Part shown: piece after piece, positions 6,501 to 41,578 of the stretch
How positions within the stretch are numbered: position 1 is the first letter of the stretch
Layout of the letters: every line of letters starts with the position of its first letter
Translations under genes and position numbers: made by a program
Assembly (NCBI RefSeq): GCF_040111675.1
Contig: NZ_CP157794.1
Coordinates: 248,001 to 312,000, forward strand
Direction of reading: 5' to 3'
DNA length: 64,000 bases
Source of the DNA: Salinarimonas sp.
GTDB taxonomy: Bacteria; Pseudomonadota; Alphaproteobacteria; Rhizobiales; Beijerinckiaceae
Notes under the pieces: model-generated
The model's database searches: none
The model's input: only the letters and a program-made list of their open reading frames with translations
What the model was told of the DNA's origin: nothing

Positions 6501-6574
6501 GACGTGGCCCGGCGCGGGGCGGCCCGGCCCCCGACCAACGAGAACGGGAGCCCGATCCGATCGGGACGAAGCGA

Positions 6575-6841: not shown

Positions 6842-6871
6842 TCCGGCGTCGCCAGCCAGGCCCTCCCGCGC

Positions 6872-10129: not shown

Positions 10130-10199
10130 GCGCCCATCCGTCTCGCGCGCCGCCTCGCGCGCCCTCGCGCAGAGCAATAGCGGAAAGGGGCGTGCGGGT

Positions 10200-10918: not shown

Positions 10919-10924
10919 GAGATC

Positions 10925-10953
10925 ACTATGAGCTTATACTCATGTTTCGTCAA
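10925..10953 (-). promoter_or_regulatory. Putative autoregulated promoter of the toxin-antitoxin operon
   Basis: Read on the minus strand there is a -35-like TTGACG (10953-10948), a 17-base spacer and a -10-like CATAGT (10930-10925). Inside the spacer sits a dyad ATGAG-N6-CTCAT (10943-10928), the kind of site an XRE antitoxin binds to block RNA polymerase. Transcription would begin at about 10918, the first base of the toxin ATG, giving a leaderless mRNA, which fits the lack of a Shine-Dalgarno sequence. Confidence 0.5.
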
Positions 10954-11040
10954 GGCGGAGAGCCGCCGGAAAACATGCGAACTTCGAGATACGTCCCGCG
11001 TTCTCCCGGCGATCCCACCCCGTGCCGAAGGGAGCGCGCC

Positions 11041-11439
11041 ATGGCCTACACCATCTCCACCACCGTCTCGATGCCGTTCGAGGAGGCCGTTACCGCCGCG
11101 ACCGAGGCGTTGAAGGCGCATGGATTCGGGGTCCTGACCACGATCGACGTGAAGGACACGCTGAAGCAGAAGATCGGCGCCGAGTTCCGTCCCTACCGCA
11201 TCCTCGGCGCCTGCAATCCGCAGATGGCGCATCAGGCGCTGCAGGCGGAGGACAAGATCGGCGTGATGCTGCCCTGCAACGTCATCGTCCAGGAGCACGC
11301 GCCCGGCCGGGTCGAGATCGCGGCGGTGGACCCCGTCGCCTCCATGCAGGCGGTGGAGAACCCGTCGCTGGGCGAGGTCGCCGGGTCGGTCCGCGAGGGC
11401 CTGCGTCAGGCGATCGCCGATCTCGAGGCCCGCTCCTGA
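11041..11439 (+). CDS. DUF302 domain protein
   Basis: 132-residue protein consisting of one DUF302 domain, a small alpha/beta fold of unknown function. The pattern SMPFEEAVTAATEALKAHGFGVLTTIDVKDTLKQKIG, followed by YRILGACNPQMAHQAL and GVMLPCNVIVQE, is the family signature. The start ATG is preceded by AAGGGAG at 11029-11035; the frame is open upstream but only this start has a ribosome-binding site. The stop lies 4 bases from the convergent xseA stop. No signal peptide is present. Confidence 0.88.
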   Translation: MAYTISTTVSMPFEEAVTAATEALKAHGFGVLTTIDVKDTLKQKIGAEFRPYRILGACNPQMAHQALQAEDKIGVMLPCNVIVQEHAPGRVEIAAVDPVASMQAVENPSLGEVAGSVREGLRQAIADLEARS

Positions 11440-11443
11440 CGCC

Positions 11444-27796: not shown

Positions 27797-27951
27797 CGGG
27801 GCTCCTCGCGAGGGGACGCGCCGCCCGGCTTAGCCGACCGCTCCCCGCGACGGAAGCCGCCGGGCGTTCGCAAGGGCGAATTCCGCTTTCGCGCGCCGTC
27901 GCGAGGCGGTAAATCTTGCGTGAAGCGCAAAGACGGCCGAGGGGGGGCGGG

Positions 27952-29100
27952 ATGATCGGACGAGCGGCGGGCCGCGCAGGCGGGTTCACCAGCGCGGCGG
28001 GGCGCGCTCTTCTCATCGCGGCGATCGGCGTCGGGCTCGGCGCTGCGACGACGGCGACGAGAGGCTGGGCGCAAGCCCCCGACATCGATTGGGGCGCCGA
28101 CACGAGCGCCTTCGCCAACGACCGCGAATGCGACGATCCGCGCTTCGAGGGACCCGGCATGGCCAAGGTCCTCGACGACGCGAATATCGGCGCGGACGCG
28201 AGCGACTGCTTCGAGCTGTTCAAGCGCGGCCGCATCGTCCTGCGCGCGGACGCCCCGTCCGTCGCCGTCGCCGGCACGGACCTCGATTTCGGCGACGACA
28301 CGGGCCGCTGGGCGAACGACGGCGAATGCGACGACCCGCGCTTCGAGGGCGAGGGCATGGCGGCGGTGCTGGTCGAGGAGGATCGGCTGCGCGACGCCAG
28401 CGACTGCCGCCGGCTCTACGAGCAGGGCGCGATCGCCCTGCGCGGCGACGCCGCGCCGGCCGCGCCCGGGCGACCGGACGTCGCCGGCGTCGATTTCGGC
28501 GACGACACGGGCCGCTGGGCGAACGACGGCGAATGCGACGACCCGCGCTTCGACGGCGAGGGCATGGCGGCGGTGCTGGTCGAGGAGGATCGGCTGCGCG
28601 ACGCCAGCGACTGCCGCCGGCTCTACGAGCAGGGCGCGATCGCCCTGCGCGGCGACGCCGCGCCGGCCGCACCCGGGCGACCGGACGTCGCCGGCGTCGA
28701 TTTCGGCGACGACACGGGGCGCTGGGCCAACGACGGCGAATGCGACGACCCGCGCTTCGAGGGCGAGGGCATGGCGGCGGTGCTGGTCGAGGAGGATCGG
28801 CTGCGCGACGCCACCGATTGCCGCCGGCTCTACGAGCTGGGCGCCATCGACCTGATCGGGGAGACGCGGGCCGACGTCGCCCCGGCCGCACCGGCCATGC
28901 CCGCGGCCCCGGCGGCGCCGTCAGCCCCGGCGGGCATCGATTTCGGCGACGATTCGAGCCGCTGGGCCAACGACGGGGAGTGCGACGACCCGCGCTTCGA
29001 GGGTGAAGGCATGGCCGTCGCCACCGTGGAGGACGACCGGATGCGCGACGCCAGCGATTGCAGCCGGCTCTTCGCCGAGGGGCGCATCACCCTGCGCTGA
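27952..29100 (+). CDS. Secreted protein with five DFGDD/NDGECDDPRF repeats
   Basis: 382-residue protein with a signal peptide (basic, then ALLIAAIGVGLGAATTATRGWAQA, cleavage likely after AQA). The mature part is five repeats with consensus DFGDDTGRWANDGECDDPRF, then GxGMA, a variable VEEDRLRDASDCRRLYEQG and IxLRGD. The repeats start at codons 28087, 28285, 28492, 28699 and 28939; each has two cysteines, one in GEC and one in SDC, which may pair. Acidic DDxxRWANDGECDD segments suggest metal binding, which is inference. The repeat motif occurs in many alphaproteobacterial exported proteins. GGGGGGCGGG precedes the ATG. Confidence 0.75.
   Translation: MIGRAAGRAGGFTSAAGRALLIAAIGVGLGAATTATRGWAQAPDIDWGADTSAFANDRECDDPRFEGPGMAKVLDDANIGADASDCFELFKRGRIVLRADAPSVAVAGTDLDFGDDTGRWANDGECDDPRFEGEGMAAVLVEEDRLRDASDCRRLYEQGAIALRGDAAPAAPGRPDVAGVDFGDDTGRWANDGECDDPRFDGEGMAAVLVEEDRLRDASDCRRLYEQGAIALRGDAAPAAPGRPDVAGVDFGDDTGRWANDGECDDPRFEGEGMAAVLVEEDRLRDATDCRRLYELGAIDLIGETRADVAPAAPAMPAAPAAPSAPAGIDFGDDSSRWANDGECDDPRFEGEGMAVATVEDDRMRDASDCSRLFAEGRITLR
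28285..28853 (+). repeat. Near-identical 207-bp tandem repeats inside a gene
   Basis: Copies at 28285-28491 and 28492-28698 are both 207 bases (69 codons) and differ at only a few positions; a third copy starts at 28699 and shares about the first 150 bases before diverging. The linkers (GDAAPAAPGRPDVAGV) are also duplicated. The near identity at DNA level means recent expansion by unequal recombination, so copy number may vary between strains. Confidence 0.9.
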
Positions 29101-29145
29101 GGCGCGCGCTTTCCTCCGGGCCGTCGTGCGCCTACATGGGACGCG

Positions 29146-29865
29146 ATGGCCCGTCTCCTGACCTACAACGTCCATTCCTTCATCGGCACCGACCGCAAGC
29201 GCGACCCGCGCCGCATCGAGCACGTGATCCGCGAGAGCGGCGCGCGCGTCGTGGCGCTCCAGGAGGTGCGCTGGAGCGCGCGCCACGAGGGCGCGCACGC
29301 GCTGCAAACGCTCGCGCGCGACCTGAAGATGGACTTCCGCTTCCAGCGCACCGCCACCTTCGCCGGCGAGCAGTTCGGGCTCGCTATTCTCTCGGACCTG
29401 CCCATGCGGCTCGTGAAGGGCGGCCCGCTGCCGCGGCTCGGGCCGGCCCTGCCGGAGCGGCGCTCGGCGCTGTGGGTGGAGGTCGAGACGGCGCAGGGGA
29501 CGCTGCAGGTGATCTGCACGCACCTCGCGGTGCTCTCGCGCCGCGACCGCATGGCCCAGGCCGAGGCGCTGCTCGGGCCCGACTGGCTCGGCGGCGCGGA
29601 GGGGCCGGCGGTGCTGATGGGCGATCTCAACGCCGGCATGCGCGCCCCCGCCTACAAGCGCCTCGCCGCCGCCCTCGCCTGCGCCCGCAGCGACCTGCCG
29701 GACCGGCACCCGACCTTTCCCTCCTGGATGCCGCTGACGCGCATCGACCACATCATGGGCGCCAACGGGGCGCGGCTCGAGAACGCGCATGCGCTGCGCA
29801 CCGCGCTCACCCGCGTCGCCTCCGACCACCTCCCCTTCGTCGCCGAGCTCGCCCCGCCTCACTGA
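29146..29865 (+). CDS. Endonuclease/exonuclease/phosphatase family protein
   Basis: 239-residue metal-dependent phosphoesterase of the EEP superfamily. All motif groups are present: LTYNVHSF at the N-terminus, VVALQEVRW with the metal-binding glutamate, ICTHLAV, MGDLNAG (the D-x-N catalytic pair), TRIDHIMG and ASDHLPFVAELA at the C-terminus. There is no signal peptide, so it is probably cytoplasmic. The family covers nucleases, sphingomyelinases and inositol phosphatases; the substrate is not resolved. It precedes an ABC exporter gene by 60 bases. Confidence 0.9.
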   Translation: MARLLTYNVHSFIGTDRKRDPRRIEHVIRESGARVVALQEVRWSARHEGAHALQTLARDLKMDFRFQRTATFAGEQFGLAILSDLPMRLVKGGPLPRLGPALPERRSALWVEVETAQGTLQVICTHLAVLSRRDRMAQAEALLGPDWLGGAEGPAVLMGDLNAGMRAPAYKRLAAALACARSDLPDRHPTFPSWMPLTRIDHIMGANGARLENAHALRTALTRVASDHLPFVAELAPPH

Positions 29866-29925
29866 GCGGGCGTGCCATCGCGGGCGAAAGCGTGCTAGAC
29901 GCGCTCGCGGAGGCCTGAAGACCCG

Positions 29926-31704
29926 ATGGCGAAGAAAAAGAACGTCCTCATGTCCGGCGACACCTGGCCGATGATGCGCCGGCTGTGGCGCGATCGCATG
30001 CGCGCGCATCGCGGCACCCTCGCCATCGTCCTCGTGCTGATCGCCATCGGCGCGGCGGCGACGGCGCTCTACCCGCTCCTGATCCGCGAGGCCTTCGACG
30101 CCTTCGACCGGCGTGACCTCGACCTGATCTTCTGGGCGCCTCTCGTCGTCGTCGTGGTCACCTCGATCAAGGGCTTCGCCCTGTTCGGCCAGACCGCGCT
30201 GACCCAGCGCACGGTGGCCCGCATCGAGGCCGACATGCAGGCCGCGCTCTACGCGCGCCTCCTGTCCTTCGACCTCGCCCAGCTCGGGCGCGAGAGCCCC
30301 GCCTCGCTGACCCAGCGCTTCACCACGGACTTCACCTACATCCGCGAGGCGATGGTGCGGATCTTCACGGTGTTCTTCCGCGACATCGCCACCATCCTCG
30401 CCCTCGTCGTGGCGATGATCGTGATCGACCCGTGGATGACGCTCATCGCCGCCCTGGTCGCGCCCTTCATCGCGCCGCCCATCGCGCGGATCGGCAAGCG
30501 CCTGCGCCGCGTCTCGACGGCGACGCAGGAGCAGATCGGCGACATGGCGGGCCTCGTCTCGGAGAGCCTCTCCGGCGTGCGCATCGCCAAGACCTACCGG
30601 ATGGAGCCCTATCTCGAGGGGCGCGCGCGGGCCGCCTTCGACCAGGTACGCGACCTCAAGATCAAGGCCGCGACCCAGCGCGCGCGGCTCGACCCGCTGC
30701 TCGAGATCGCCGGGGGCGCCGCCGTCGCCGCGGTGCTCGCGCTGATCGGCTTTCGTATCGGGCGCGGCGAGACCACGATCGGCGACTTCACCGGCTTCGT
30801 CACGGCGCTGCTGATGGCGGCGCAGCCGATCCGCGCGCTCGGCAACCTCAACGCCATCGTGCAGGAGGCCGTCGCCGCGCTCCACCGCCATTGGGCGATC
30901 CTCGACGAGGCGCCGCGCATCCAGGATCCGCCGGCGCCGGAGCCCCTCCACCTCGTCAAGGGCGAGGTGCGCTTCGCGGACGTGCGCTTCCGCTATCGCC
31001 CGGACGCACCGGCGCTGGAGGGCATCGATCTCGTCGCCCGCGGCGGCGGGACGACGGCGCTCGTCGGCCGCTCGGGCTCGGGCAAGTCGACGCTGCTCGC
31101 CCTCGTCCCGCGCCTCTACGACCCGACCGAGGGCGCGGTCCTGATCGACGGGCAGGACGTGCGCGGCCTGTCGCTCGAGAGCCTGCGCGGCGCCATCTCC
31201 GTCGTGTCGCAGGACGCGATCCTGTTCGACGACACGATCCGCGCCAACATCGCCTTCGGCCGCCCCGGGGCGAGCGAGGCGGAGATCGTCGCGGCGGCGC
31301 AGGCGGCGGCGGCGCACGACTTCATCGCCGCCCTCCCCGACGGCTACGACACCCGCGTCGGCTCGGCCGGCGGGCGGCTCTCCGGCGGCGAGCGCCAGCG
31401 CGTGGCGCTCGCCCGCGCCTTCCTGAAGGACGCGCCGATCCTCCTCCTCGACGAGCCGACGAGCGCGCTCGACGCCCAGTCCGAGCGGCTCGTCCAGGAC
31501 GCCCTCGAGCGGCTGATGGCGGGGCGCACGACGCTCGTCGTCGCCCACCGCCTCTCCACCGTGCGCGACGCCGACGAGATCGTGGTGCTGGAGGCCGGCC
31601 GCATCGTCGAGCGCGGGACGCATGCGGCGCTCGTCGCCGCCGGCGGCGCCTATGCGCGGTTGGAGCGCCTGCAGTTCACGGGCGAACACCTCGACGCCGG
31701 CTGA
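29926..31704 (+). CDS. ABC exporter, fused membrane and ATPase domains
   Basis: 592-residue half-transporter expected to act as a homodimer. Residues about 25-310 form the six-helix type I exporter membrane domain, with a conserved coupling-helix region RVSTATQEQIGDMAGLVSESLSG. The nucleotide-binding domain has Walker A GRSGSGKST near residue 380, the signature LSGGERQ near 484 and Walker B ILLLDEPTS near 504, followed by the H-loop AHRLST. MsbA-like organisation is evident, but the cargo (lipid, peptide or drug) cannot be assigned. The ATG follows the EEP gene by 60 bases. Confidence 0.92.
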   Translation: MAKKKNVLMSGDTWPMMRRLWRDRMRAHRGTLAIVLVLIAIGAAATALYPLLIREAFDAFDRRDLDLIFWAPLVVVVVTSIKGFALFGQTALTQRTVARIEADMQAALYARLLSFDLAQLGRESPASLTQRFTTDFTYIREAMVRIFTVFFRDIATILALVVAMIVIDPWMTLIAALVAPFIAPPIARIGKRLRRVSTATQEQIGDMAGLVSESLSGVRIAKTYRMEPYLEGRARAAFDQVRDLKIKAATQRARLDPLLEIAGGAAVAAVLALIGFRIGRGETTIGDFTGFVTALLMAAQPIRALGNLNAIVQEAVAALHRHWAILDEAPRIQDPPAPEPLHLVKGEVRFADVRFRYRPDAPALEGIDLVARGGGTTALVGRSGSGKSTLLALVPRLYDPTEGAVLIDGQDVRGLSLESLRGAISVVSQDAILFDDTIRANIAFGRPGASEAEIVAAAQAAAAHDFIAALPDGYDTRVGSAGGRLSGGERQRVALARAFLKDAPILLLDEPTSALDAQSERLVQDALERLMAGRTTLVVAHRLSTVRDADEIVVLEAGRIVERGTHAALVAAGGAYARLERLQFTGEHLDAG

Positions 31705-31813
31705 GGGGCGACCCGCGCACCGGTAGCGCCGCCTTGGGGATAACCTGCATCCGCGAGTTTCGTGGCGTGCGCCCCTGCGCTATCCCTGTCTCGTCGAGGC
31801 GAGGGAGGGGCGC

Positions 31814-32131
31814 ATGCTGGACCAGCTGACCTACGAGGATTTCAAGGACGACATCGGCAAGACCTTCGTGCTCGAAGGCATCGGCGGGCGCGTCGAGATG
31901 GAGCTGATCGCCGCCCGGCTCTCGCCCTATCCGGCGCTGCCCGCCCGCCGACGCGGCTTCGCCATCCTCTTCGTCACCGCGCCCACCCCGGCGCTCGACA
32001 ACCAGATGTACAACATCCGCCACCCCCGCCGGGGCCTGATGGAAGGCGTCTTCATCACCCCCGTCTTCCCCGCCGCCGAGGACATGGAGAAGCTCAACGG
32101 CAGGCGCGTCTACGAGGCGGTGTTCAACTGA
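31814..32131 (+). CDS. DUF6916-like small protein
   Basis: 105-residue soluble protein with MLDQLTYEDFKDDIGKTFVLE at the N-terminus, a middle GFAILFVTAPTPALDNQMYNIRHPRRGLMEGVFITPVFP and the terminal YEAVFN. This layout resembles DUF6916, a family of beta-rich proteins of unknown role. The assignment comes from recalled features only. It is preceded by GAGGGGCGC and its stop is 19 bases from the convergent CHAT gene stop. No signal peptide. Confidence 0.6.
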   Translation: MLDQLTYEDFKDDIGKTFVLEGIGGRVEMELIAARLSPYPALPARRRGFAILFVTAPTPALDNQMYNIRHPRRGLMEGVFITPVFPAAEDMEKLNGRRVYEAVFN

Positions 32132-32150
32132 GGGCGGCGGCCCCTCGGGC

Positions 32151-35100
32151 TCACCCCTCGAACAGCACGAAGGCCGCCCAGGTCGCCGGATCGGCCTCGA
32201 CCGGGTCGGCGCTCCCGGCGAACTCCCGCTGCGTGGCCTGCAGGGCGGCGGCGGGGTCGCTGGGGCCGGTCTGGGTGAGCCAATTCCAGTAGAAGCTGGC
32301 CATGAAGCGCTGGGTCAGAAGATCGTCGATGTTCCACAACGCAAGGAGCACGTTCCGAGCGCCGGCGACGTAGAAGGCGCGCGGCAGCCCCTCGAGGCCC
32401 TCCGAATAGTCCACGGCACCCAGCGCCGTCCGACAGGCCGACACGACCACGAGCTCCGTCCCACGAAGGTCCAGCGCCTGCGCCTCGAAGGCGTGGAGGA
32501 TACCGTTCTCACCATCGGCGCCGGTGCCGCCGTCCAGTGCGCGGTTCGCGTCCGCGAGCGCGACCCCCGCCTGAAGAAGCGGACGGCCCGGAACGAGCAT
32601 GTCGTCGAGATAATACCCGTGCGTCGCGAGATGCAGGACGCGCGGCGCTTGAGCGAGGGACATCAGCGCCGCCTCGCTGGCGTCGCGACCGAGCCGAGGA
32701 GGCGAAACCGGCTCCTCCGGCCGTAACGCGGCGTACAGCTCGGTGATCGCCTCGGCTTCCGCCCCGCTGTAGGCGAGCGGTGCGAATCCCGTCAGGTCGC
32801 CGGCGCGCAGCGCCCCGAGCGCGGCGCGAGACTCCGGACCGGCGCTCGTGACGCCCGCGGGAACGAGGAGCGCCGCCGAAGCGTCGGTGCTTCGAGGGAG
32901 GGGGCCGTAGTCGATCCCGCCGAATACCAGGAGACCGTTCGCGTTCAAGGGCGTCTTCGGCGCCGCGAGATCACGTCCGGTCTGAAGCAGGCGCAGGTCG
33001 AAGCGATCGATCAGGAGCCGCCCCTGCCGGTCCTTCAGCGCGGCGAACGGCATCGCGTTGAAGGCGCCGTCCGGCACGAGGTAGAGACGATCGACACCGT
33101 CCAGGTGCGGCAGGAGCGGGGCGATCAGCGCCGCATCGAGGTCTCGCGCCGCCGTGACCTGTCGCGCGCGCCCCTGCGCGTCGTCGCCGGGCTGGACGAT
33201 CCGTTCGCGGAGGGCTTCGAGCGGCGCGGCCTCGCCGAGGTCGACGAGCGTCGGCGCGCCGTCCGCACGCAGGACGCCGGCGAGGAGACGCCATGCGCCG
33301 GGGCGCGCGGCGGGAACCTCGGGCTGCCGATAAAGACGAAGCTCGACGAGCGCTTCGTCCGATTCGAGCGCGGCCTGAACGTCCGTCGTGCCGACCGCGC
33401 CCCGCTGTTGCGCTTCCGCGTATTCGGGCGAACGCAGACGCAGCCGCGCCTCCGCGGCGTCGAGCGCTTCGATGACGTCGTTCACTCCCTCGGGATCCTG
33501 CTCGGCGTCGAAGACAGCCCGCGACAGAGCGCGTGCGCCGTCGCGGACGGCTCGCGCCGCCTCCACGGCCTCGGGGTCGTCGCTCTCGTTCAGCAGACGC
33601 ACGACGACGGCGTCGTCGAGCGCACGGCGCATCTTCCAGCGCAAGAGGAGATCGAAGGCGAACGTCGTCGCCTCGGGGGCGGGATGCGCGACGGCGAGCG
33701 AGAAGGCGGCGTCTTGGTAGCGGGACGCGGCCTCCAGAGCCGTGCGGCGCGTAGGCTCGGCGTGCGTTGTCCGCAGCTCGACTGTGAGCGCTCTCGCAAG
33801 GCGTTCGTCCGCAAGCCGAAGCTGAGCGAGCGCGCGGCTCGGAAGACCGCGATATTGATAGAGCGCGGCGAGATTCGCGCGAGCGGCGACGGCGGCCAAG
33901 GGAGGCAACAGGTCGGCCCTGGTCGGCTCGTTGAGAAGCCGCTCGAACATGGATTGCGCCTCTCGGATGCGGCCAGAAGAAAACAGAATCGCGGCTCTCG
34001 CCGCCCGCGAGCTCAACGTCTGCGGATGCTCGCGCCCGAAGCGCCGCTCGAAGCTTTCCAGCGCACGTTGGGAGAGGTGTTGCGCATCGTCGTGCTGACC
34101 AAGACGGCCGAGGTAAATCGAGTAATTATGCATGATATTTGCAGAGATCGTAGAGTTCATGGAGGATAGTTCTTCTGAGAGGACTAAAGCCCTTAGGTAA
34201 AAAAGGCCAGCTTCCTTCAGATGCTCTCTCTCCAGAAGTACTAAAGCAAGATTATTCAATGTAATTGCTTTCTCGATACTCAAAGACTCTGTAGTTGCGT
34301 TCTGCGCATCCAGGGCACGAGCGATCAGCTCTTCGGCCTCTTCGTATCTCTCCTGGGCGAGGTAGATCAGCCCTAGATTGTTCAGCGCGCGAACGATATC
34401 CGGGTGGTCCGGCCGCAGCACGTCCTCGCGGGACCGAAGGACCCGCAGAAGCAGGGTCTCTGCTTCGCCGAACCTGCCTCGATCCCAATAGTTCCCTGCC
34501 AGGTTGGAAAGGACCCGCAGAAGCGTGTGGCGATCAAGGCCGCCGCCGTCGCTCGACCTGCTTATGACTGATATATAAAGCTCTTCTGCTTCCGAGTAAT
34601 TGCCGACAATATCGAGAATATAGGCAAGATTTGAGATCGCTTCGAGCGTTGCCGGATTGTCTTCTCCGTAGGTCGTCTCGTTCATCTCGACTATCTGAAG
34701 AAACAGCTTCTCGGCTCGATCGAGCTGCTCTCTCTCGAGATGATGACGTGCCAATGCGGTCAATGCGGAGCGGCTTCGTTCGTGTTCCGCCCCGAGCGTC
34801 CGCTCGTAGGCGGCGAGGACACGTCGTCTGAGCAGCTCGGCCTCCGGGAAGCGTCTTTCCTGCTCCAGCAAGCCTGCGAGGCTCTCGAAGACAACGAGCG
34901 TATCCCGGTGTTCAGGGCCGAATTTCTTACTCGATCCCTGAAGTACCCATCTGTAGATCGGCTCGGCCTCACGAAGGCGCGCCTGCCGCGAGTAAGCTCC
35001 GGCGAGTTCATAAGCTGCGGCAAGCGTACCCTCGTGCCATACACCGAGAGTCTTGGCGCGTATCTTCACCACCGCTCGAAGCAGCTTTTCCGCCGCTGTA

Positions 35101-35492
35101 TTCTGGTCCAATCGGAGATTCACCATAGCGAGATCGAACATGGCTGCCGTCGTCTCCGGGTGCGGCAGTCCGTGAACACGCAGGCGAATTTCGAACGCCC
35201 GTCTCGTCAGCGGCCTCGCCTCTGCATCGCGACCTCTCAGGCTGAGGATCGCCGCGTAGAGATTCAGACCTTCGACCGTGCGCAGATGACGCGTGCCGAA
35301 TTCGACCTCCAGCGAAGCGAGGTGGGCACGGGCAAGCGAGAGGGCGCCGGCGTAGTCACCGGCTCGGTACAGCTCGACGACGCGCGCCTGCACGTCGCCC
35401 ATCCCGCCCGGAACTTCGCCGTCCTGCGCCGGTGCGCGCGCGACGGCGAGAACCAGCAGCAGGCAGAGGAGGGCGGAGGCGAGGCGGCGCAT
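32151..35492 (-). CDS. Exported TPR-CHAT caspase-like protein
   Basis: 1113-residue protein with a signal peptide (MRRLASALLCLLLVLAVARA, cleavage near APAQ), a long tetratricopeptide superhelix (residues about 30-560, including LYAAILSLRG, LNNLGLIYLAQERYEEAEEL and LERAHRSRSAL-type helices), and a C-terminal CHAT domain. The caspase-like dyad is H958 (LHLATHGYY) and C1020 (VVSACRTALG), and AFYVAGARNVLLALWNI and WAAFVLFEG complete the fold. CHAT proteases cut partner proteins; here the partner is unknown and the active domain would be periplasmic. The middle of the gene (about 34.1-34.8 kb) has far lower GC than its flanks. Confidence 0.9.
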   Translation of the reverse strand: MRRLASALLCLLLVLAVARAPAQDGEVPGGMGDVQARVVELYRAGDYAGALSLARAHLASLEVEFGTRHLRTVEGLNLYAAILSLRGRDAEARPLTRRAFEIRLRVHGLPHPETTAAMFDLAMVNLRLDQNTAAEKLLRAVVKIRAKTLGVWHEGTLAAAYELAGAYSRQARLREAEPIYRWVLQGSSKKFGPEHRDTLVVFESLAGLLEQERRFPEAELLRRRVLAAYERTLGAEHERSRSALTALARHHLEREQLDRAEKLFLQIVEMNETTYGEDNPATLEAISNLAYILDIVGNYSEAEELYISVISRSSDGGGLDRHTLLRVLSNLAGNYWDRGRFGEAETLLLRVLRSREDVLRPDHPDIVRALNNLGLIYLAQERYEEAEELIARALDAQNATTESLSIEKAITLNNLALVLLEREHLKEAGLFYLRALVLSEELSSMNSTISANIMHNYSIYLGRLGQHDDAQHLSQRALESFERRFGREHPQTLSSRAARAAILFSSGRIREAQSMFERLLNEPTRADLLPPLAAVAARANLAALYQYRGLPSRALAQLRLADERLARALTVELRTTHAEPTRRTALEAASRYQDAAFSLAVAHPAPEATTFAFDLLLRWKMRRALDDAVVVRLLNESDDPEAVEAARAVRDGARALSRAVFDAEQDPEGVNDVIEALDAAEARLRLRSPEYAEAQQRGAVGTTDVQAALESDEALVELRLYRQPEVPAARPGAWRLLAGVLRADGAPTLVDLGEAAPLEALRERIVQPGDDAQGRARQVTAARDLDAALIAPLLPHLDGVDRLYLVPDGAFNAMPFAALKDRQGRLLIDRFDLRLLQTGRDLAAPKTPLNANGLLVFGGIDYGPLPRSTDASAALLVPAGVTSAGPESRAALGALRAGDLTGFAPLAYSGAEAEAITELYAALRPEEPVSPPRLGRDASEAALMSLAQAPRVLHLATHGYYLDDMLVPGRPLLQAGVALADANRALDGGTGADGENGILHAFEAQALDLRGTELVVVSACRTALGAVDYSEGLEGLPRAFYVAGARNVLLALWNIDDLLTQRFMASFYWNWLTQTGPSDPAAALQATQREFAGSADPVEADPATWAAFVLFEG

Positions 35493-35557
35493 GGCGTCCC
35501 TCTTTCGCGCTTCGATCTGATCAATTAAGCATGAGTTGCGAGATAACTCTATTCCGG

Positions 35558-35908
35558 ATGGTTCCGATGATCGTCGCGCCGTGGCGCCTCGCGCTCCTGC
35601 TGCTGCCGCTCCTCGCCGCCCCCGCGGCGGCGCAGGCGCCGCTGTGCTTCTGCCTCGCGGAGCGGGGAACCGAGTTCGTCACATATCGCAATTGCACGGA
35701 GGCGACGCCGCCGACGGGGGGGACGCCGGTCGCGCAATGCACCGACCTGCGCACCGGCGCGATCGGCACCATCCGCGACGTCGCCGCCTTCGATCGCCTG
35801 CCCGCCGGCGAGGCGGGGTGCAACCCGTGCCGGCCGCGGATCTCGCTCGACGATCGCGAGACCCGTCCGCGCGGCGAGGACGAAGACGACGAGGCCGCCA
35901 CGCAATGA
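35558..35908 (+). CDS. Small exported cysteine-containing protein, unknown
   Basis: About 116 residues, beginning with a signal peptide (PWRLALLLLPLLAAPAAAQA) and continuing APLCFCLAERGTEFVTYRNC, with C in CTDLRTG and the pair CNPC later, six cysteines in all. The tail is very acidic (RGEDEDDEAATQ). In-frame ATGs at 35531, 35558 and 35567 are all possible; the later ones put the hydrophobic core nearest the N-terminus. The gene is divergent from the CHAT gene, and its stop overlaps the next start (ATGA), suggesting a two-gene unit. Confidence 0.55.
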   Translation: MVPMIVAPWRLALLLLPLLAAPAAAQAPLCFCLAERGTEFVTYRNCTEATPPTGGTPVAQCTDLRTGAIGTIRDVAAFDRLPAGEAGCNPCRPRISLDDRETRPRGEDEDDEAATQ

Positions 35909-36627
35909 GCGCCGGCACGCCCCCGGTCGCCCCGCCGCCATCCCTGCCCGCGATCTTCGGGGAGGCCGGCGTGCTCACCGCCTACGCCGCCGCCCTCGCC
36001 TACGTGGCCGGGTGGTCCTATGCCGATCGCTGGTTCGCGGAGCTCGGCATCGGGCTCTCCGAGCTCGACGGGTTCGGCGTCGAGGACGTTGCCGTCTACG
36101 CGCTTTGGGTGCTGCGCGACGCCTGGGCTTGGAGCCTCGGCTTCCTCGCGCTCGCGGTGGGCCTGCTCGTCGCGCTGTGGCGCTGGCGCGGGAGGCTCGG
36201 CGGCGGGCCGGAGCCGGTGGCGCTCGGCGCGGTGGTGCTGGCGCTCGCCTCGCTGCTCGGCGCCGCCCAGCTCGGCGCCATGCGGGCGAGCGATCAGGTC
36301 GAGCGGCTGTTCGAGACCGGCTACGTCGACTTCCCCCGCATCGCCGTGATCCCGCTGCCCGAAAGCCCGCTCCAGGCGGTGCTCGGGCCGCCGCGCGACA
36401 TCGGCGCGAGCACCTGCCTGCGCGAGATCTTCGCCGATCGCACCAACGTCTACGCCTATCTCGGCTACGCGCCGCCGCCATCGGCGCCCCCTCCGGCGCG
36501 CCCGGACATCCTGGTGCTGCCGCGCGCCGAGATCGCCTACGTCCGTATCGTCACCGGCGTCGCCGACCTGTGCGAGCGGCCCTCTACTGAATCACCAGAT
36601 CCGCCTGCAGCGCCCCCGCCGACTTGA
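35905..36627 (+). CDS. Membrane protein of unknown function
   Basis: 240-residue protein with hydrophobic segments at residues about 20-42, 68-100 and 112-132, then a soluble C-terminal region of roughly 100 residues containing DFPRIAVIPLPESP, ASTCLREIFADRTNVYAYLGY and a proline-rich tail. I recognise no family. The ATG overlaps the stop of the exported cysteine protein (35905-35908), so the two are co-translated. The 3' end overlaps the convergent flgI gene by 44 bases, which is unusual and may reflect a late insertion. Confidence 0.6.
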   Translation: MSAGTPPVAPPPSLPAIFGEAGVLTAYAAALAYVAGWSYADRWFAELGIGLSELDGFGVEDVAVYALWVLRDAWAWSLGFLALAVGLLVALWRWRGRLGGGPEPVALGAVVLALASLLGAAQLGAMRASDQVERLFETGYVDFPRIAVIPLPESPLQAVLGPPRDIGASTCLREIFADRTNVYAYLGYAPPPSAPPPARPDILVLPRAEIAYVRIVTGVADLCERPSTESPDPPAAPPPT

Positions 36628-37741
36628 TCGCCTGGAGGATGGCGATGATCCCGGCGGGGCGCAGGCCGATCTGGTTGAGGCCGGCGACGAGGGTCTGGAG
36701 GGACGAGCCCTGGAGGATGGCGAGGCGGCCTTCCTCCTGGGCGACCTCGACGCGGGTGTCGGGGAGGACCACCGTCTGCCCGTCCGAGAAGGGCGCCGGC
36801 TGCGAGGCGACCGGCAATTCGGTGATGCGCACGGTGAGGTTCCCGTGGGTGACGGCCACCGTCGAGATCCGAACGTCCGCGCCGATGACGACGGTGCCGG
36901 TGCGCTCGTCGACGACGACGCGGGCGGGCGTGTCCGGCTGGACGATCAAGTCGCCGATCTCGGCGAGGAAGCGCACGGGGCTCACCTCCGGCGGGTTCAC
37001 CAGGAGCACCGAGCGGTAGTCGCGCTCGTAGGCGCCGCGCCCGCCGAAGCGCGCCTGGGTGTAGACGTTGATGGCGTCGGCGATGCGCACCGCCGTGCGG
37101 AAATCCGGGTTCCTGAGCTCGAGGATCAGCGAGCGCATGTTGCCGAAATGGTCGGGCAGCTCCCGCTCGATCAGCGCGCCGTTCGGCACGCGGCCCGTGG
37201 TCGGCACGCCCTGCGTGACGATCTCGGCCTCGCCGGCGGCGGAGAAGCCGGTGACGGCGACGGGCCCTTGCGCGACGGCGTAGATCTGCCCGTCGGCGCC
37301 CATGAGCGGCGTGATCACGAGCGTGCCGCCGAGCAGCGAGCGCGCGTCTCCCAAGGCCGAGACCGTGACGTCGATGCGCGAGCCGCGCCCGATGAAGGGC
37401 GGCAATTCCGCCGTGACCACGACGGCGGCGACGTTGCGGGCGCGCAGGGAGCTGCCCTGCGTGTTCACGCCCATGCGGTCGAGCATGGAGGCGAGCGACT
37501 GCTCGGTGAAGGGCGCGTTGCGCAGCGTGTCGCCGGTATTGGCGAGCCCCACCACGAGCCCGTAGCCGACGAGCTGGTTCTCGCGCATGCCCTTGAGGGT
37601 GGTGATGTCCTTGATGCGGGTCGCGCCGGAGAGGAAGGCGTCGGCCTGTGCCGTCGTGGGGCTCGCGAGGGCGAGGGCGAGCCCGATGACGAGCGCGCGC
37701 GCGCGCGCGCCGGCGCGCCGCAGGCGGGGGAGGCGGATCAT
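36584..37741 (-). CDS. flgI: Flagellar P-ring protein
   Basis: Forms the P ring in the peptidoglycan layer around the flagellar rod. The 385-residue protein has a signal peptide ([20 protein letters not shown], cleavage after AQA) and the FlgI core: ATRIKDITTLKGMRENQLVGYGLVVGLANTGDTL, SLASMLDRMGVNT, RNVAAVVVTAELPPF and VVDERTGTVVIGADVRISTVAVTHGNLTVRI. Its ATG overlaps the flgA stop by four bases. It is the last gene of this cluster; flgH, often next in other species, is absent from this side. Confidence 0.95.
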   Translation of the reverse strand: MIRLPRLRRAGARARALVIGLALALASPTTAQADAFLSGATRIKDITTLKGMRENQLVGYGLVVGLANTGDTLRNAPFTEQSLASMLDRMGVNTQGSSLRARNVAAVVVTAELPPFIGRGSRIDVTVSALGDARSLLGGTLVITPLMGADGQIYAVAQGPVAVTGFSAAGEAEIVTQGVPTTGRVPNGALIERELPDHFGNMRSLILELRNPDFRTAVRIADAINVYTQARFGGRGAYERDYRSVLLVNPPEVSPVRFLAEIGDLIVQPDTPARVVVDERTGTVVIGADVRISTVAVTHGNLTVRITELPVASQPAPFSDGQTVVLPDTRVEVAQEEGRLAILQGSSLQTLVAGLNQIGLRPAGIIAILQAIKSAGALQADLVIQ

Positions 37742-38211
37742 CGGGCGGCCCCCACCCGCAGGGTGCCGTCCTCGTGGACGGTGCCGACGATCACGAGGCC
37801 CGAATCGAGGTTGCGCGCGCGCACCTGCTCGCCCGCCCCGCCGGATTCGAGCGGGGTGACCAGGGTCGAGATCACGAGGCCGTCGGCCTCGAACACGATC
37901 TGCGTCGTCTCGCCGCGCAGGACGAGCTTGGCGTCCTCCACCGCGTTCTGCGGCACGAGCTGGCCGGGGAGCAGCGTGCGGCGCGCGACCTTGCCGACGA
38001 GGGCGCGCATGTCGTGCACGACCGGCATCCGCCCGGCGCTGCGGGGGAATTCGCGCTCGGCCAAGACCGTCTCCTTGATCGTCTCGCCGGGATAGATGGT
38101 GATGGTCGGCACCGGCATGGTCACGCCGCCGGCGGCGCGCGCGGGAAGCGGGGCGAGGCTCGCGACGAGCGCGAGGGCGGCCGCGGCGAGCGCGGGGAGG
38201 AGGCGGGGCAT
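37738..38211 (-). CDS. flgA: Flagella basal body P-ring formation protein FlgA
   Basis: Periplasmic chaperone for P-ring assembly, 157 residues with a signal peptide (LLPALAAAALALVASLAPLPARAA). The SAF-like core RTLLPGQLVPQNAVEDAKLVLRGETTQIVFEADGLVISTLVTPLESG and the C-terminal VRARNLDSGLVIVGTVHEDGTLRV are typical of FlgA. It lies between flgG (44-base gap) and flgI (4-base overlap), the usual order in Rhizobiales. Confidence 0.93.
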   Translation of the reverse strand: MPRLLPALAAAALALVASLAPLPARAAGGVTMPVPTITIYPGETIKETVLAEREFPRSAGRMPVVHDMRALVGKVARRTLLPGQLVPQNAVEDAKLVLRGETTQIVFEADGLVISTLVTPLESGGAGEQVRARNLDSGLVIVGTVHEDGTLRVGAAR

Positions 38212-38255
38212 CGATCGGGGCTCCGGTCGTCTCGGGAGGGGCGCCTCGGGCGGGA

Positions 38256-39041
38256 TCAGCGGACGTTGGTGACGGTGGCGGCCATCTGGTCGGCGGCCTG
38301 GATCACCTTGGAATTCATCTCGTAGGCGCGCTGGGCCGAGATGAGCTGGGTGATCTCCTTCACCGGATCGACGTTGGACGCCTCGAGATAGCCCTGGTGG
38401 ATCTTGGCGTAGCCGGGATCGGCCGGGACGCCCACCACCGGCTGGCCGGAGGCGACGGTCTCGCGATAGAGGTTGCCGCCCATCGGCTCGAGGCCGGTCT
38501 CGTTGGCGAAGTTGGCGAGGGTCAGCTGGCCGAGCTCCTCCAGCTGCTGCTGGTCCGGCACGCGAGCGAAGACCTGGCCAGACTGGTTGACCACGATCTC
38601 CACCGTGTTCTGCGGCACCAGGATCGCCGGCTCGACGAGAAAGCCCTCGATGGTGACGAGCTGGCCCTCGGCGTTGGTGTTGAACGAGCCGGCGCGGGTG
38701 TAGAGGATCTCGCCCTCGGGGCCCTGCACCTGGAACCAGCCGCGCCCGTCGAGCGCGAGGTCGAGCTTGTTGCCGGTCTGCGAGAGGGCGCCCTGCATGT
38801 GCAGGTTCCGGATCGCGGCGGCGCGCACGCCGAGCCCGAGATTGGCGCCCTCCGGGATCGCCGCCTCGCCGCCGCGCATGGGCACGCCCTGGAGCCGCTC
38901 GGTCTGGTAGAGCAGATCCGTGAACTCGGCCCGCGCCCGCTTGAAGGCGGTGGTGTTGATGTTGGCGATGTTGTTGGCGATGACCTCGACGTTGAGCTGC
39001 TGGGCGTTCATGCCCGTGGCGGCGATGGCGAGCGCTTTCAT
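38256..39041 (-). CDS. flgG: Flagellar distal rod protein
   Basis: Distal rod subunit, 261 residues, exported by the flagellar type III system. N-terminal [40 protein letters not shown] and C-terminal [38 protein letters not shown] are the coiled regions that stack in the rod, and the centre has GRGWFQV and [16 protein letters not shown]. Length equals that of FlgG (about 260) rather than the shorter FlgF. It follows fliE after 14 bases. Confidence 0.95.
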
Positions 39042-39055
39042 GGCTGAGATCCTCC

Positions 39056-39400
39056 TCAGATCTGCATCCGGCTGATTTCCTGGTACGCCTGGACCACCTT
39101 GTCGCGGACCGCGATGGCGGTCTGGAGGGTGCGCTCGGCGTTCATCACGGCCTCGACCACCTGCTGGACGGAGGCCTTGCCGTTCATGCCCGCGAGCGAG
39201 GCCGCCTCGGCCTCGCGGACGGCGGTGACGCCCTGGTTCGCGACGTCCGCGAGGACGCTGCCGAAATCGGGCAGCCCGGTGGACGAGGCGGGCGCGATCG
39301 GCCCCGCGGGGGAGCCGGCGGCGAGGCGCTCGGCCGCGCGGGTCGCGGCGGCGCCGCCGGGGCCGACGAGGGAGGAGAGCGAGGAGACGGCGTCGATCAT
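39056..39400 (-). CDS. fliE: Flagellar hook-basal body complex protein FliE
   Basis: Joins the MS ring to the proximal rod. The 114-residue protein ends with the FliE signature: [62 protein letters not shown], where the EIxRMxI terminus is conserved. The N-terminus is variable and low in complexity. The ATG (39400) touches the flgC stop, sharing one base (TGATG), so the two are translationally coupled. Confidence 0.93.
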
Positions 39401-39819
39401 CAGGAGCTCCTGAGGAGGTCGATGGTGGCGGCGACCATGCCGCGGGTCTGCTTGATGACGGAGAGGTTGGCCTCGTAGGCGCGGTTCGCCTCGCGCATGT
39501 CGGCCATCTCGACCAACATGTTGACGTTGGGCAGCTTGACCATGCCGTTCTCGTCGGCGGCCGGGTGCGAGGGATCGTACTCGGTACGGAACGCGGCCTC
39601 GTCGGCGCCGACGCCCTCGACCTGGACGAGGCTCGCGCCCGAGGCGCGATCGAGCGCGCTCTCGAAGGTCACGGTCTTGCGCCGATAGGGATCCGCGCCG
39701 GCGGTCTCGCCGGTGGAGTTCGCGTTGGCCAGGTTCTCGGCGATGATGCGCATGCGGGTGGAGAGGGCCTCGAGGCCCGAGCCGGCGATGCGCGAGGCGG
39801 ACGTCAGCGGGTCGATCAT
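39400..39819 (-). CDS. flgC: Flagellar proximal rod protein FlgC
   Basis: Proximal rod subunit, 139 residues. It begins [37 protein letters not shown], has [12 protein letters not shown], and ends [41 protein letters not shown], all standard for FlgC. The frame extends upstream to 40155 through flgB, but that is a shadow; the ATG at 39819 is 2 bases after the flgB stop. Confidence 0.95.
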
Positions 39820-39821
39820 GC

Positions 39822-40202
39822 TCACCCCCGGACCGATTGCAGGATCATGCGGTGGAAGGACTTCACGACGGAGGTCGCGAGCGTGTGCTCGCGGCTGTTG
39901 GAGGAGGCCTTGATCAGCTCCTCCTCGACGCTCACCGAGTTGCCCGAATGCGTGATCGCCCAGCCGTCGCGCGTGCGGGTCTCGGAGACGCGCGGATCGC
40001 CGTCGGGAATCAGGTGGTCGGGGCTGGTCGCGGCCAGCCGCAGATGCGTGCGGTCGAGCACGTCGACGAAGGGCTCGACGTCGCGGGCGCGGAAGCCCGG
40101 CGTGTGGGCGTTCGCCACGTTCTCGGCGATCGTCGCCTGGCGCACGGACAGCCACTCGGACTTGCGCGAGGCGAGGCTGAAGAGATGGATGCCGTCCAGC
40201 AC
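39822..40202 (-). CDS. flgB: Flagellar basal body rod protein FlgB
   Basis: First rod protein and first gene of the flgBC-fliE-flgGAI cluster, 126 residues. The sequence [39 protein letters not shown] is typical of FlgB, as is the C-terminal [29 protein letters not shown]. No ATG stands at the conserved N-terminus; the GTG at 40202 gives VLDGIHLFS and has GGGAG 8 bases upstream, so it is the best start. That GGGAG lies in a potential hairpin. Confidence 0.92.
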
Positions 40203-40209
40203 GTGCGGG

Positions 40210-40236
40210 GCTCCCGGTCGTGTTGCGATCGGGAGC
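40210..40236 (-). promoter_or_regulatory. Possible Shine-Dalgarno-masking hairpin before flgB
   Basis: On the minus strand GCTCCCGATC (40236-40227) can pair with GACCGGGAGC (40219-40210) with one mismatch and a 7-base loop. The right arm holds the only plausible flgB ribosome-binding site, GGGAG at 40215-40211, 8 bases before the GTG start. Such a structure could limit translation of the first rod gene. It is inference from complementarity only. Confidence 0.4.
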
Positions 40237-40300
40237 GAGGCTAGGCGGCGTGGCTTGCGCCTGGCTTGCGGGGAGGGCCGGGGCGGGGACGGAGGCCTGG

Positions 40301-40341
40301 GAGCCGGGGGACGGGTCCCGCCGGCCCGCCGCCCCCGGCTC
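40301..40341 (-). terminator. Stem-loop at the end of the radical SAM gene
   Basis: GAGCCGGGGG (40301-40310) and CCCCCGGCTC (40332-40341) are exact reverse complements separated by 21 bases that can fold further. One arm overlaps the stop codon of the radical SAM gene. No T-run follows on the minus strand, so this may act with Rho or merely stabilise the mRNA end. Confidence 0.4.
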
Positions 40342-41578
40342 AGGCGAAGAGCGAGAGCTGGTCCGCGTCGGCGCGCTTGCGCTCGCGGGCCGGCGGCGTG
40401 AACAGGTCCGTGCGCAGGCGCGCGCGGCGCTCGTTCATGCCGAGCCGTTTCGCGGCGGTCTCGAAACGCCGGCCGATCATCCAGGCGTAGGGGCCCTGGC
40501 CCGTCTGCCGCGCGCCCCAGGTCGCGTCGTATTCCTTGCCGCCGCGCGTATCGCGCACCAGCGACAGGACGCGGTCGAGCCGGTCGGGATAATGGTCGAT
40601 GAGCCAGTCCCGCGCGAGATTCTTCAGCTCGTGCGGAAGCCGCAGCAGGACGTAGCCCGCCTCCCGCGCCCCGGCGGCGTGCGCCGCCTCCAGGATGCGC
40701 TCGATCTCGTGGTCGTTGATCGCCGGGACGATCGGCGCGACGAGCACGGTGACCGGGACGCCCTCGTCCGTGAGGCGCTTGATGGCGTCGAGCCGACGTG
40801 CCGGCGAGGCCGCCCGCGGCTCCATCTTCCGCGCCAGGACGGGGTCGAGCGTGGTGAGCGAGATCGCCACCTTGGCGAGGCCGCGCTCGGCCATCGGGCC
40901 GAGGATGTCGATGTCGCGCGTGACGAGATGCGACTTGGTGACGATCCCCACCGGGTGATCGCGCCGGGAGAGGACCTCCAGGATGCCGCGCGTGATGCGG
41001 TAGCGCCGCTCGACGGGCTGGTAGGGATCGGTGTTGGCCCCGAGCGCGATCGCCTTGGGGACGTAGCCCTTGGCGGCGAGCTCGCGCTCGAGCAGCTCGG
41101 CCGCGTTCGGCTTGGCGAAGAGCTTCGTCTCGAAATCGAGCCCGGCGGAGAGGCCGTGATAGGCGTGGGTCGGGCGGGCGAAGCAGTAGAAGCACCCGTG
41201 CTCGCAGCCGCGATAGGGATTGATCGAGCGGTCGAAGCCGATGTCGGGCGAATCGTTCCGCGCGATGATCGTGCGCGGGCGCTCCTCGATCACCTCCGTG
41301 CGCAGCGGACGCGGCTCGTCCTCCTCCTCGCCCGGCATCTCCTCGACGAAGGCCTCGCGCGCGATGCGCTCGAAGCGGCCGGTCTCGTTCGTCGGCGCGC
41401 CGCGGCCGCGGCGCAGGACGTCCGCCAGCGCCTCCGGCCGGCCGGTGTCGCGCAGGAGCGCGCGGCGCTGCAGATCGCGCGCGGAGGGCTCGCGGACGCC
41501 CTCGCGGGGCCCCGGAACGATGACGTGCCGGCGCGGGCTCTCTGCACGTGGCGTTTCGGCGAGCGCGGCAGGGCTCAT
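40340..41578 (-). CDS. PA0069-type radical SAM protein
   Basis: 412-residue radical S-adenosylmethionine enzyme related to spore photoproduct lyase. The cluster motif C-x3-C-x2-C is [18 protein letters not shown], and the family blocks [54 protein letters not shown] and [16 protein letters not shown] are all present. The start ATG at 41578 has GAGGAGG upstream; the longer frame to 41656 has no ribosome-binding site. A LexA-type box stands about 86 bases upstream. The substrate of this group is unknown; nucleic-acid repair is suggested by the relation to SplB. Confidence 0.88.

Follow-up and report, generated by a model that had tools for sequence, protein, structure and literature searches.

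A signal-bearing TPR-CHAT protein is genetically linked to a six-cysteine protein and a membrane protein across distant Proteobacteria

The window, a stretch of 64,000 nucleotides from a contig of a Salinarimonas species, contains a gene for a long TPR-CHAT protein with a signal-like N-terminus and, divergent to it, two overlapping frames for a cysteine-rich protein and a membrane protein. This arrangement raises the question of whether the three genes belong together and, if they do, what a CHAT protease might do with such partners outside the cytoplasm. The features of the locus are collected in Table 1.

Table 1. Features of the TPR-CHAT locus, in window coordinates
Feature	Position	Strand	Basis
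TPR-CHAT protein, 1113 aa	32151..35492	-	ORF; Pfam TPR_12 E 3.1e-66, CHAT E 1.8e-55
Signal-peptide-like N-terminus, residues 1-23	35424..35492	-	Sequence and hydropathy rule
CHAT (caspase-like) domain, residues 781-1110	32163..33152	-	Pfam PF12770 match
H958, putative catalytic His (HLATHG)	32619..32621	-	Kept in 11/11 CHATs compared
C1020, putative catalytic Cys (SAC.T)	32433..32435	-	Kept in 11/11 CHATs compared
Six-cysteine exported protein of 116 aa with a predicted five-stranded beta core	35558..35908	+	Six Cys invariant in 10 rows of A6; AlphaFold mean pLDDT 76.6
R105, invariant tail Arg (PRGE here), candidate cleavage or docking site	35870..35872	+	R[GQS] in 10 rows of A6
Membrane protein, 240 aa, probably three helices, C-terminal domain predicted periplasmic (about residues 139-224; Cys171, Cys223)	35905..36627	+	ATGA overlap; family A4; model; hydropathy and loop charge
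Block absent here from the congeners G001 and G002: ABC transporter (29926-31704), DUF6916 protein (31814-32131), trio	29866..36573	.	Gene 29146-29865 joins flgI directly there

The initial annotation had described a protein of 1113 residues with a signal peptide, TPRs and a CHAT domain retaining H958 and C1020, and the reading frame, Pfam and the motifs confirm this description, with export judged from sequence and hydropathy. The Pfam search of the window protein matched TPR_12 over nine stretches and gave the CHAT domain a score of 188.9 bits, against a curated cut-off of 24 for PF12770, and the His/Cys dyad of the family is present. By sequence and a crude hydropathy rule, the N-terminus MRRLASALLCLLLVLAVARAPAQ is Sec-like, making the window CHAT protein a putative periplasmic protease. 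A genome search returned this protein as the single CHAT match of the window genome, and the genomes of loci L049, L054 and L056 likewise contain one CHAT match each, always beside the pair.

CHAT proteases had also been described in the initial annotation as mostly cytoplasmic, a statement that fails for this branch. Two short peptide patterns yielded 187 relatives, of which the best 80 were kept with a CHAT-domain alignment. The signal count comprised 82 CHAT rows, of which 11 were cut by a contig end and left out; 54 of the 71 assessed passed a crude and liberal hydropathy rule for a signal-like N-terminus. Eight of the ten CHAT rows from trio-type loci passed the same rule, the other two starting in masked or N-rich stretches. 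TPR-CHAT proteins bearing signals look common in bacteria, and no partner or substrate is given for any of them in the titles and opening lines of abstracts surveyed.

The frame of the small protein has two possible starts, 35531 and 35558. The latter yields exactly six cysteines, all downstream of a signal-like N-terminus; the former adds a seventh (MSCEI). With start 35558, the earlier claim of a small exported six-cysteine protein divergent to the CHAT gene holds, the export signal being read from the sequence. In alignment A6, whose ten rows include neither L055 nor the L137 protein's first module, the six cysteines and one tail arginine are present in every row, and R[GQS] always sits 11-14 residues past the last cysteine. 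A naive shuffle product for the motif at this spacing was 8e-10, the motif having been picked after the data were seen. Judged from this alignment, the invariant arginine fits a cleavage or docking site and proves neither. Pfam gave no consistent match for the family (NeA_P2 at E 0.073 in one of eight proteins).

The second frame of the divergent unit overlaps the first by ATGA at 35905-35908 and encodes a membrane protein, as had been annotated. In its AlphaFold model (pLDDT 82), long helices fall into three groups and the C-terminus forms a beta domain; by the hydropathy rule, the window protein has just two membrane stretches and five of the nine family members tested have three, and the number of helices predicted is uncertain. 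In the family alignment A4, both cysteines of a C-terminal pair are found in six of the seven trio members and both are absent from that of L053. Being kept or lost together is consistent with a disulfide, hence with an exported C-terminal domain. As for the cysteine family, Pfam gave no consistent match, the best being TgpA_N (E 0.0032) in one of seven proteins; two partner families are now described, neither with a consistent Pfam match.

Fold identities sought for the partners with Foldseek and VIA-align were not used, since neither the cysteine-protein nor the membrane-protein model had a PDB match at E 0.001 or better and the Z scores were only middling. The VIA-align comparisons, not taken as evidence, placed the cysteine core nearest to SH3 domains (best Z 4.8, rmsd 2.4, 48 aligned), the membrane model nearest to a helical bundle (best Z 6.0, rmsd 10.2, 107 aligned) and its C-terminal domain near Hfq/Sm barrels (Z about 5).

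The full trio was found in seven lineages (the window, Pararoseomonas, Rubrivivax, Venteria, Competibacteraceae, Rhodospira and Minwuiaceae) spanning Alpha-, Beta- and Gammaproteobacteria, and an eighth, Bradyrhizobium, has a modified form. The order is CHAT-cysteine-membrane in L049 and L054, cysteine-membrane-CHAT in L050, L052, L053 and L056, and divergent in the window, a variation that argues against a plain inherited neighbourhood. The cysteine and membrane frames overlap in six of the seven trios, through ATGA in four. Neighbourhoods were counted in 79 CHAT loci, fetched by CHAT similarity among the best 80 of 187 relatives. The seeds of cysteine-module profile A1 were the window and G203, whose locus is that of L051; with E values no higher than 6e-5 it matched L049, L050, L052, L053, L054 and L056, plus its own seed L051, and these loci, L051 included, are rows 1-6 and 8 of the 79. 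The membrane profile, built from the window, L049 and L052, matched L050, L053, L054 and L056 with E values of at most 2.2e-30; elsewhere in the CHAT loci it found nothing better than E 0.4, bar a remnant in L051/L036 (0.047). In the 70 more distant loci (L058-L127), 41 of which extend more than 5 kb before and more than 2.5 kb after the CHAT domain, the best match of a wider cysteine profile, A3, reached only E 0.6. L107, at E 0.053 with A1, fell to 0.82 with A3 and was dropped, as were frames of L071 and L101 showing a loose six-cysteine pattern and no profile support. Genetic linkage joins the TPR-CHAT group, the six-cysteine family and the membrane family in Proteobacteria that are only distantly related. 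The signal-like N-terminus and CHAT domain are shared by exported TPR-CHAT proteins at large, whereas the six-cysteine and membrane pair is linked only to this group among the loci fetched from the best 80 of 187 relatives.

The idea of a linked system proposed in the initial annotation is supported by the seven lineages with the trio in changed order, but the set is not typical of Hyphomicrobiales: a single-sequence query of 297 sampled genomes gave a sound small-protein match in the window genome and one other. Strong cysteine-module matches occurred in 4 of 398 Pseudomonadota genomes, and a scan of genome contigs with the window membrane protein alone as query gave no match. At class level, a two-sequence cysteine profile matched 8 of 385 genomes besides the window (E 0.002-0.009), several with internal stops, and these were taken as chance. 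A match in G1097 (E 3.7e-4) was rejected after reading of the ORFs, and one in G110 (E 7.7e-4) proved to be an alternative frame of a 651-aa ORF. Among 48 genomes of the class of G1037, only G922 and G1037 matched, both already in the profile. G1037 carries the pair (L138) in a stretch free of CHAT genes for about 8 kb in both directions, and has CHAT matches elsewhere in the genome; in G922 (C27, L136) the membrane protein stands alone. Two-partner secretion (TPS domain) was rejected as a required companion because four of the ten genomes searched, the window's included, have no TPS match yet keep the CHAT gene and the pair.

The identity matrices of CHAT and membrane proteins correlate strongly (r 0.85; 1 of 5040 permutations), those of CHAT and cysteine proteins less so (r 0.60; 57 of 5040) and those of membrane and cysteine proteins weakly (r 0.44; 247 of 5040). 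The alphaproteobacterial Pararoseomonas and the betaproteobacterial Rubrivivax group as sisters in the CHAT tree (support 96/94), the membrane tree (86/88) and, weakly, the cysteine tree (61/82), which suggests joint transfer. On a tree of 82 CHAT domains, from which the L051 copies were left out as duplicates of L036, the pair-linked label can be explained by 3 changes, where shuffled labels average 9.6 and none of 500 shuffles is as low. The linked CHATs cluster but form no single strongly supported clade, and the window branch is long; on this tree the window CHAT belongs to the linked group, its exact position being unsure since no starred branch holds it. In Salinarimonas, the trio lies within a block of ~6.7 kb absent at this site from two congeners, and the Pfam-scanned neighbours (window 28000-41000) are flagellar, ABC transporter, nuclease/phosphatase and DUF6916 proteins. 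Plasmid records contained no match for the window's two partners or the L049 and L052 membrane proteins, and viral contigs no relatives of the membrane family or the CHAT alignment. The trio has the look of a single small, mobile module of the cell envelope.

Fused forms of the cysteine module were also observed. In Bradyrhizobium it is part of a larger exported protein (706 aa), where the tail motif is internal, between the module and a large C-terminal region; the membrane gene is a remnant, L051 having no intact copy. Against 198 genomes of its family, the 706-aa protein matched itself and one weak sequence (E 6.8e-4, with stops inside). A caspase-like character of its C-terminal part, suggested by eye from ASCATG, was dropped, as profile comparison and a PDB sequence search gave no support. 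In L055, all that resembles the module is a degenerate stretch (E 0.078) within a fusion that also contains TPRs and a DUF900 hydrolase.

The reading that we tentatively prefer, giving it a little less than an even chance, is that the trio is one functional cell-envelope module, whose periplasmic CHAT protease acts on, or docks to, the tail of the cysteine protein at its inner-membrane partner. All three proteins would work on the periplasmic side of the inner membrane, where the membrane protein (N-in, three helices, outside C-terminal beta domain) would anchor the site and the TPR-CHAT protein would have the disulfide-stabilised cysteine protein as its direct partner. The flexible C-terminal tail of this partner would be gripped by the TPR part and cut by the CHAT domain at the conserved Arg-Gly-type motif once the module is triggered, leading to an altered state of the membrane protein; in the Bradyrhizobium fusion, a cut at the motif would free the large C-terminal region. 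We infer this cleavage of the cysteine protein by the CHAT domain, and R105 is a single residue on which it could be directly tested. The sporadic, apparently horizontal distribution suggests a role in conflict or stress response rather than housekeeping, which is the weakest step. A partner pair travelling with one CHAT group opens exported CHAT function to laboratory test.

That the pair and the CHAT gene are merely unrelated neighbours, as might be suggested by G1037, where the stretch read contains the pair and no CHAT gene, is extremely improbable: seven trios in changed order stand against none in 70 more distant CHAT loci, and we judge this explanation refuted by the profile searches and the co-variation of identities. 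A small, exported, cysteine-rich protein, co-encoded with a putative protease and overlapping the membrane gene in six of seven trios, could also be a disulfide-rich inhibitor or lid of CHAT, its conserved tail arginine entering the active site uncut; the membrane protein would then sense envelope stress and withdraw the inhibitor, and the true substrate would lie elsewhere. We find this quite unlikely, the fusions to a large extra region in Bradyrhizobium and to TPRs and a DUF900 hydrolase in L055 being more like those of a targeting or substrate module than of an inhibitor.

TPR domains commonly bind short C-terminal tails, and the motif of the non-fused proteins follows the core at a narrowly constrained distance, close to the C-terminus, as would suit a structural adaptor whose tail docks in the TPR groove and tethers CHAT to the membrane protein, neither partner being cleaved. 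The internal position of the motif in the Bradyrhizobium fusion speaks against such an adaptor, which we regard as somewhat unlikely. It is also rather doubtful that the trio is a housekeeping module for envelope maintenance or protein processing, spread by transfer and with no tie to phage or stress: the neighbours in L052, L053, L056 and L138 look metabolic and ordinary by eye, and none of the three window proteins matches a PADLOC 2023 defence model at an E threshold of 0.01, but the rarity of the cysteine module and the missing block in the two congeners do not fit this role.

Beyond the preferred cell-envelope module, the trio might be a periplasmic cassette for caspase-type signalling or self-killing, passed on horizontally, in which the exported TPR-CHAT protein cuts its disulfide-knotted partner after the invariant arginine at the inner membrane and the module is reused as a protease-releasable prodomain in fusions. 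This is unlikely in our estimation; if true, it would place Craspase- or gasdermin-like logic outside the cytoplasm. In bacterial gasdermin systems, a caspase-type protease is linked to a gasdermin. Here too the protease gene adjoins that of a membrane-acting or membrane protein, but the membrane partner is integral and the CHAT protein predicted exported; no gasdermin appeared among the Pfam matches (E up to 1) of either partner family, bacterial gasdermins being possibly too divergent for Pfam. The Craspase CRISPR complex (Csx29 TPR-CHAT, Cas7-11, substrate Csx30) is cytoplasmic. It shares with the trio a TPR array ahead of a CHAT domain that carries the His/Cys pair, and a co-encoded partner as possible substrate. 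Unlike Craspase, the window CHAT has a signal-like N-terminus (sequence and hydropathy), Cas7-11 (gRAMP) is not among the window ORFs at 28000-41000 (eight Pfam-scanned), and the partner is an exported six-cysteine protein with no Pfam match, set apart from Csx30 by description. Craspase cleavage sites differ between orthologs (PMC11106740, PMC10028731), whereas the tail arginine of the trio's cysteine protein is conserved; the absence of a conserved cleavage sequence in Craspase CHATs (PMC11106740) counts against cleavage at this arginine. Among the other trio-type CHATs, that of L049 has weak PADLOC matches to a general TPR model (3.5e-8), PDC-M71B (7.7e-4) and BovA (0.0022).

The TPR-CHAT protein is the sole CHAT match in its single-contig 5.35 Mb genome, of which the window covers bases 248001-312000. 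Pfam analysis found TPR_12 in nine stretches and assigned residues 781-1110 to a CHAT domain, with the dyad residues H958 (within HLATHG) and C1020 (within SAC.T), while the N-terminus is Sec-like, so that the initial annotation of an 1113-residue, signal-bearing TPR-CHAT protein was borne out. The divergent pair that it described, a small six-cysteine protein and a membrane protein in overlapping frames, was also confirmed, the divergent starts being separated by 38 or 65 bases depending on the start codon chosen. Elsewhere in the window, the repeat protein listed in the table produced a ladder of repeat matches in DNA comparisons with both same-genus genomes of the sample (G001 and G002), and its repeat copy number may differ between the window and these congeners.

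Features of the window and of related loci
Feature	Locus	Coordinates	Strand	Description
TPR-CHAT ORF	window	32151-35492	-	1113 residues
Small six-cysteine protein	window	start 35558, alternatively 35531		six Cys, all past the signal-like stretch
Membrane protein	window	ATGA overlap with small-protein frame at 35905-35908		240 aa
Repeat protein	window	27916-29100	+	exported-looking, ~69-residue repeats around GDDTGRWANDGECDDPRFEGEGMA
Gene left of block	window	29146-29865
flgI	window	36584-37741
Cysteine-module fusion	L036 (L051)	9999-12116 (2949-5069)	-	six-Cys module N-terminal in 706-aa exported protein
SAR324 fusion	L055	5686-7356	+	degenerate cysteine-like N-terminus, TPRs, DUF900 alpha/beta hydrolase
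TPR ORF	L052	7071-8036		signal-like start
CHAT ORF	L052	8009-11020		overlaps TPR ORF in a different frame
Region upstream of trio	L049	577-7851		Pararoseomonas
Double cysteine-module-like protein	L137 (G922:C127)	340-7195	-	two cysteine-module-like parts

Used as a single query, the small protein gave one weak match in the 297 genomes of the order (G203, Bradyrhizobium; 34% identity, E 5.9e-5), located in the N-terminal part of an exported protein (706 aa) encoded directly downstream of a TPR-CHAT gene, whose CHAT domain is 48% identical to that of the window. Scanning a CHAT-domain alignment against 84,980 species yielded 79 loci from the best 80 of 187 relatives. Among these, a cysteine-module profile (A1) seeded with the window and G203 sequences matched L049, L050, L052, L053, L054 and L056, plus its own seed L051. 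The membrane profile, seeded with the window, L049 and L052, also matched L050, L053, L054 and L056 at E 2.2e-30 or better; in L051 the membrane gene is reduced to a 47-residue remnant. The cysteine module is thus present in 7 of the 9 closest loci (L049-L057, among the best 80 of 187 relatives). L055 retains a degenerate cysteine-like stretch (E 0.078), and the upstream side of L057 is unreadable because its CHAT ORF begins at the contig edge. At the 70 other loci (L058-L127, with ample flanks at 41), neither the cysteine module (best E 0.6) nor the membrane protein (best E 1.7) was matched convincingly. When 82 CHAT domains were placed in a tree, those with the linked label clustered, needing 3 changes versus a shuffled mean of 9.6 (0/500 shuffles as low); no single clade uniting them is strongly supported, and the window sits on a long branch. 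The genetic linkage suspected in the initial annotation is strongly supported by these results.

Pairwise identities co-vary between the CHAT and membrane proteins (r 0.85, 1/5040 permutations), between the CHAT and cysteine proteins (r 0.60, 57/5040) and between the membrane and cysteine proteins (r 0.44, 247/5040). Pararoseomonas (alpha) and a Rubrivivax MAG (beta) are sisters in the CHAT and membrane-protein trees, and weakly in the cysteine-protein tree, as would be expected if the set had moved together; a binning error in the MAG could also produce this placement. Regarding the window itself, the gene left of the block abuts flgI in both congeners and the intervening DNA is absent at the site, while whole-genome searches found no relative of the CHAT or membrane protein anywhere in G001 or G002. 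DNA similarity picks up again at window 36553 (G002) and 36574 (G001), and the last conserved cysteine of the membrane-protein relatives aligns with window Cys223 (codon 36571-36573). Since the relatives end where congener similarity resumes, the extra tail of the window protein seems to be translated flanking DNA, which favours a gain of the block in the window over its loss from the congeners.

Three gene orders were observed: CHAT-Cys-Mem in L049 and L054, Cys-Mem-CHAT in L050, L052, L053 and L056, and the divergent arrangement of the window. The pair frames overlap in 6/7 trios, as ATGA in the window, L049, L050 and L053, and are separated by a 2-base gap in L052. The overlapping TPR and CHAT ORFs of L052, which lie close to masked or N-rich sequence, could result from a frameshift or an assembly effect. 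In L050, an IS-like transposase frame is separated from the pair by what we read as the end of a further CHAT gene. The region upstream of the Pararoseomonas trio includes resolvase-like and methyltransferase-like genes, identified by eye, and one of its encoded proteins matches PDC-M33A, a candidate defence model (E 2.5e-18).

In the enlarged cysteine-module profile (A6), the six cysteines and one tail arginine are invariant in all ten rows. This arginine lies 11-14 residues past the last cysteine, after an unconserved linker, with G, Q or S as the next residue; a naive shuffle gave 8e-10 for the motif in all ten rows, the motif having been picked after the alignment was seen. AlphaFold models displayed a five-stranded core (block pLDDT 80-89) with an unstructured tail (55-56) for the cysteine protein, and helices 14-46, 59-95 and 103-137 with a C-terminal beta domain (pLDDT 82) for the membrane protein. 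By a hydropathy rule, three membrane stretches were found in 5/9 members, two in three members including the window, and four that overlap in L056. In the members with three, the TM2-TM3 loop tends towards positive charge (3 K/R versus 0 D/E in L049 and L050), so the C-terminal domain would tend to lie outside by the positive-inside rule. Both cysteines of this domain occur in 6/7 trio members and both are missing in L053, which fits a possible disulfide. Signal-like N-termini were detected in 8/10 CHAT rows at trio-type loci, the other two starting where the sequence is masked or N-rich. For both partner families, Pfam gave no consistent match and the PDB no sequence relative (best E 0.63 and 0.95), and no PHROGs match was obtained for the window proteins and one L049 protein.

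Across a 398-genome phylum sample, six genomes matched the membrane-protein profile A4 with E values of 0.01 or below, three strongly (G000, which includes the window, G922 and G1037) and three at E 6.5e-6 to 0.008. Around these matches, profile A3, built independently of them, placed a cysteine module adjoining the membrane gene at two sites, G1037 (E 2.4e-11) and G922:C127 (E 3.9e-9). In a second search of 398 genomes of the phylum, A6 matched 9 at E up to 0.01; the four strong ones (G000, G203, G922 and G1037) are all A6 seeds, so this search yielded no new member and no strong module beyond them. All four contain CHAT matches. However, no CHAT gene lies near the G1037 pair within the stretch read, the G922:C27 membrane-gene copy is solitary, and at G922:C127 the double-module protein and a membrane-gene fragment neighbor an RCC1-repeat protein that matches Peptidase_C13 (E 6.4e-9) and a protein with a TPS domain. 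The tie between the pair and a CHAT gene is therefore not a strict one.

The signal-like CHAT N-termini, the loop charge and the cysteine pattern together place all three proteins, by prediction, at the periplasmic face. In our preferred mechanism, the CHAT protein would cleave, or dock to, the tail of the cysteine protein at its invariant arginine, the candidate site. In mode of working, the trio would most resemble Craspase Csx29-Csx30, in which a TPR-CHAT protease is described as cutting a co-encoded protein (PMC10028731). The absence of Cas7-11 from the annotated genes flanking the CHAT gene, the different partners and the signal-like N-terminus set the trio outside Craspase, whose cleavage sites are reported to vary between orthologs (PMC11106740), whereas the trio arginine is conserved. 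CHAT domains also occur in bacterial conflict systems (PMC10907252). Pfam, not decisive for gasdermins, revealed no gasdermin partner, and a search of titles and abstract starts of open-licence papers found no description of the trio. It is a variant on the known arrangement of a CHAT protease with co-encoded partners, and exported CHAT proteins thereby gain a concrete, testable partner.

In the Bradyrhizobium fusion, the motif, here VPRGE, separates the cysteine module from the remaining protein, and a cut there would release a large downstream region. After this fusion come the genes for a 551-aa metallophosphatase-like protein and for a second TPR-CHAT protein. The SAR324 fusion is flanked by two CHAT-bearing ORFs. 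Three Bacteroidota loci (L063, L099 and L103) carry several CHAT ORFs per short stretch, with three tree rows each, 8/9 having signal-like N-termini and one being cut by a contig end.
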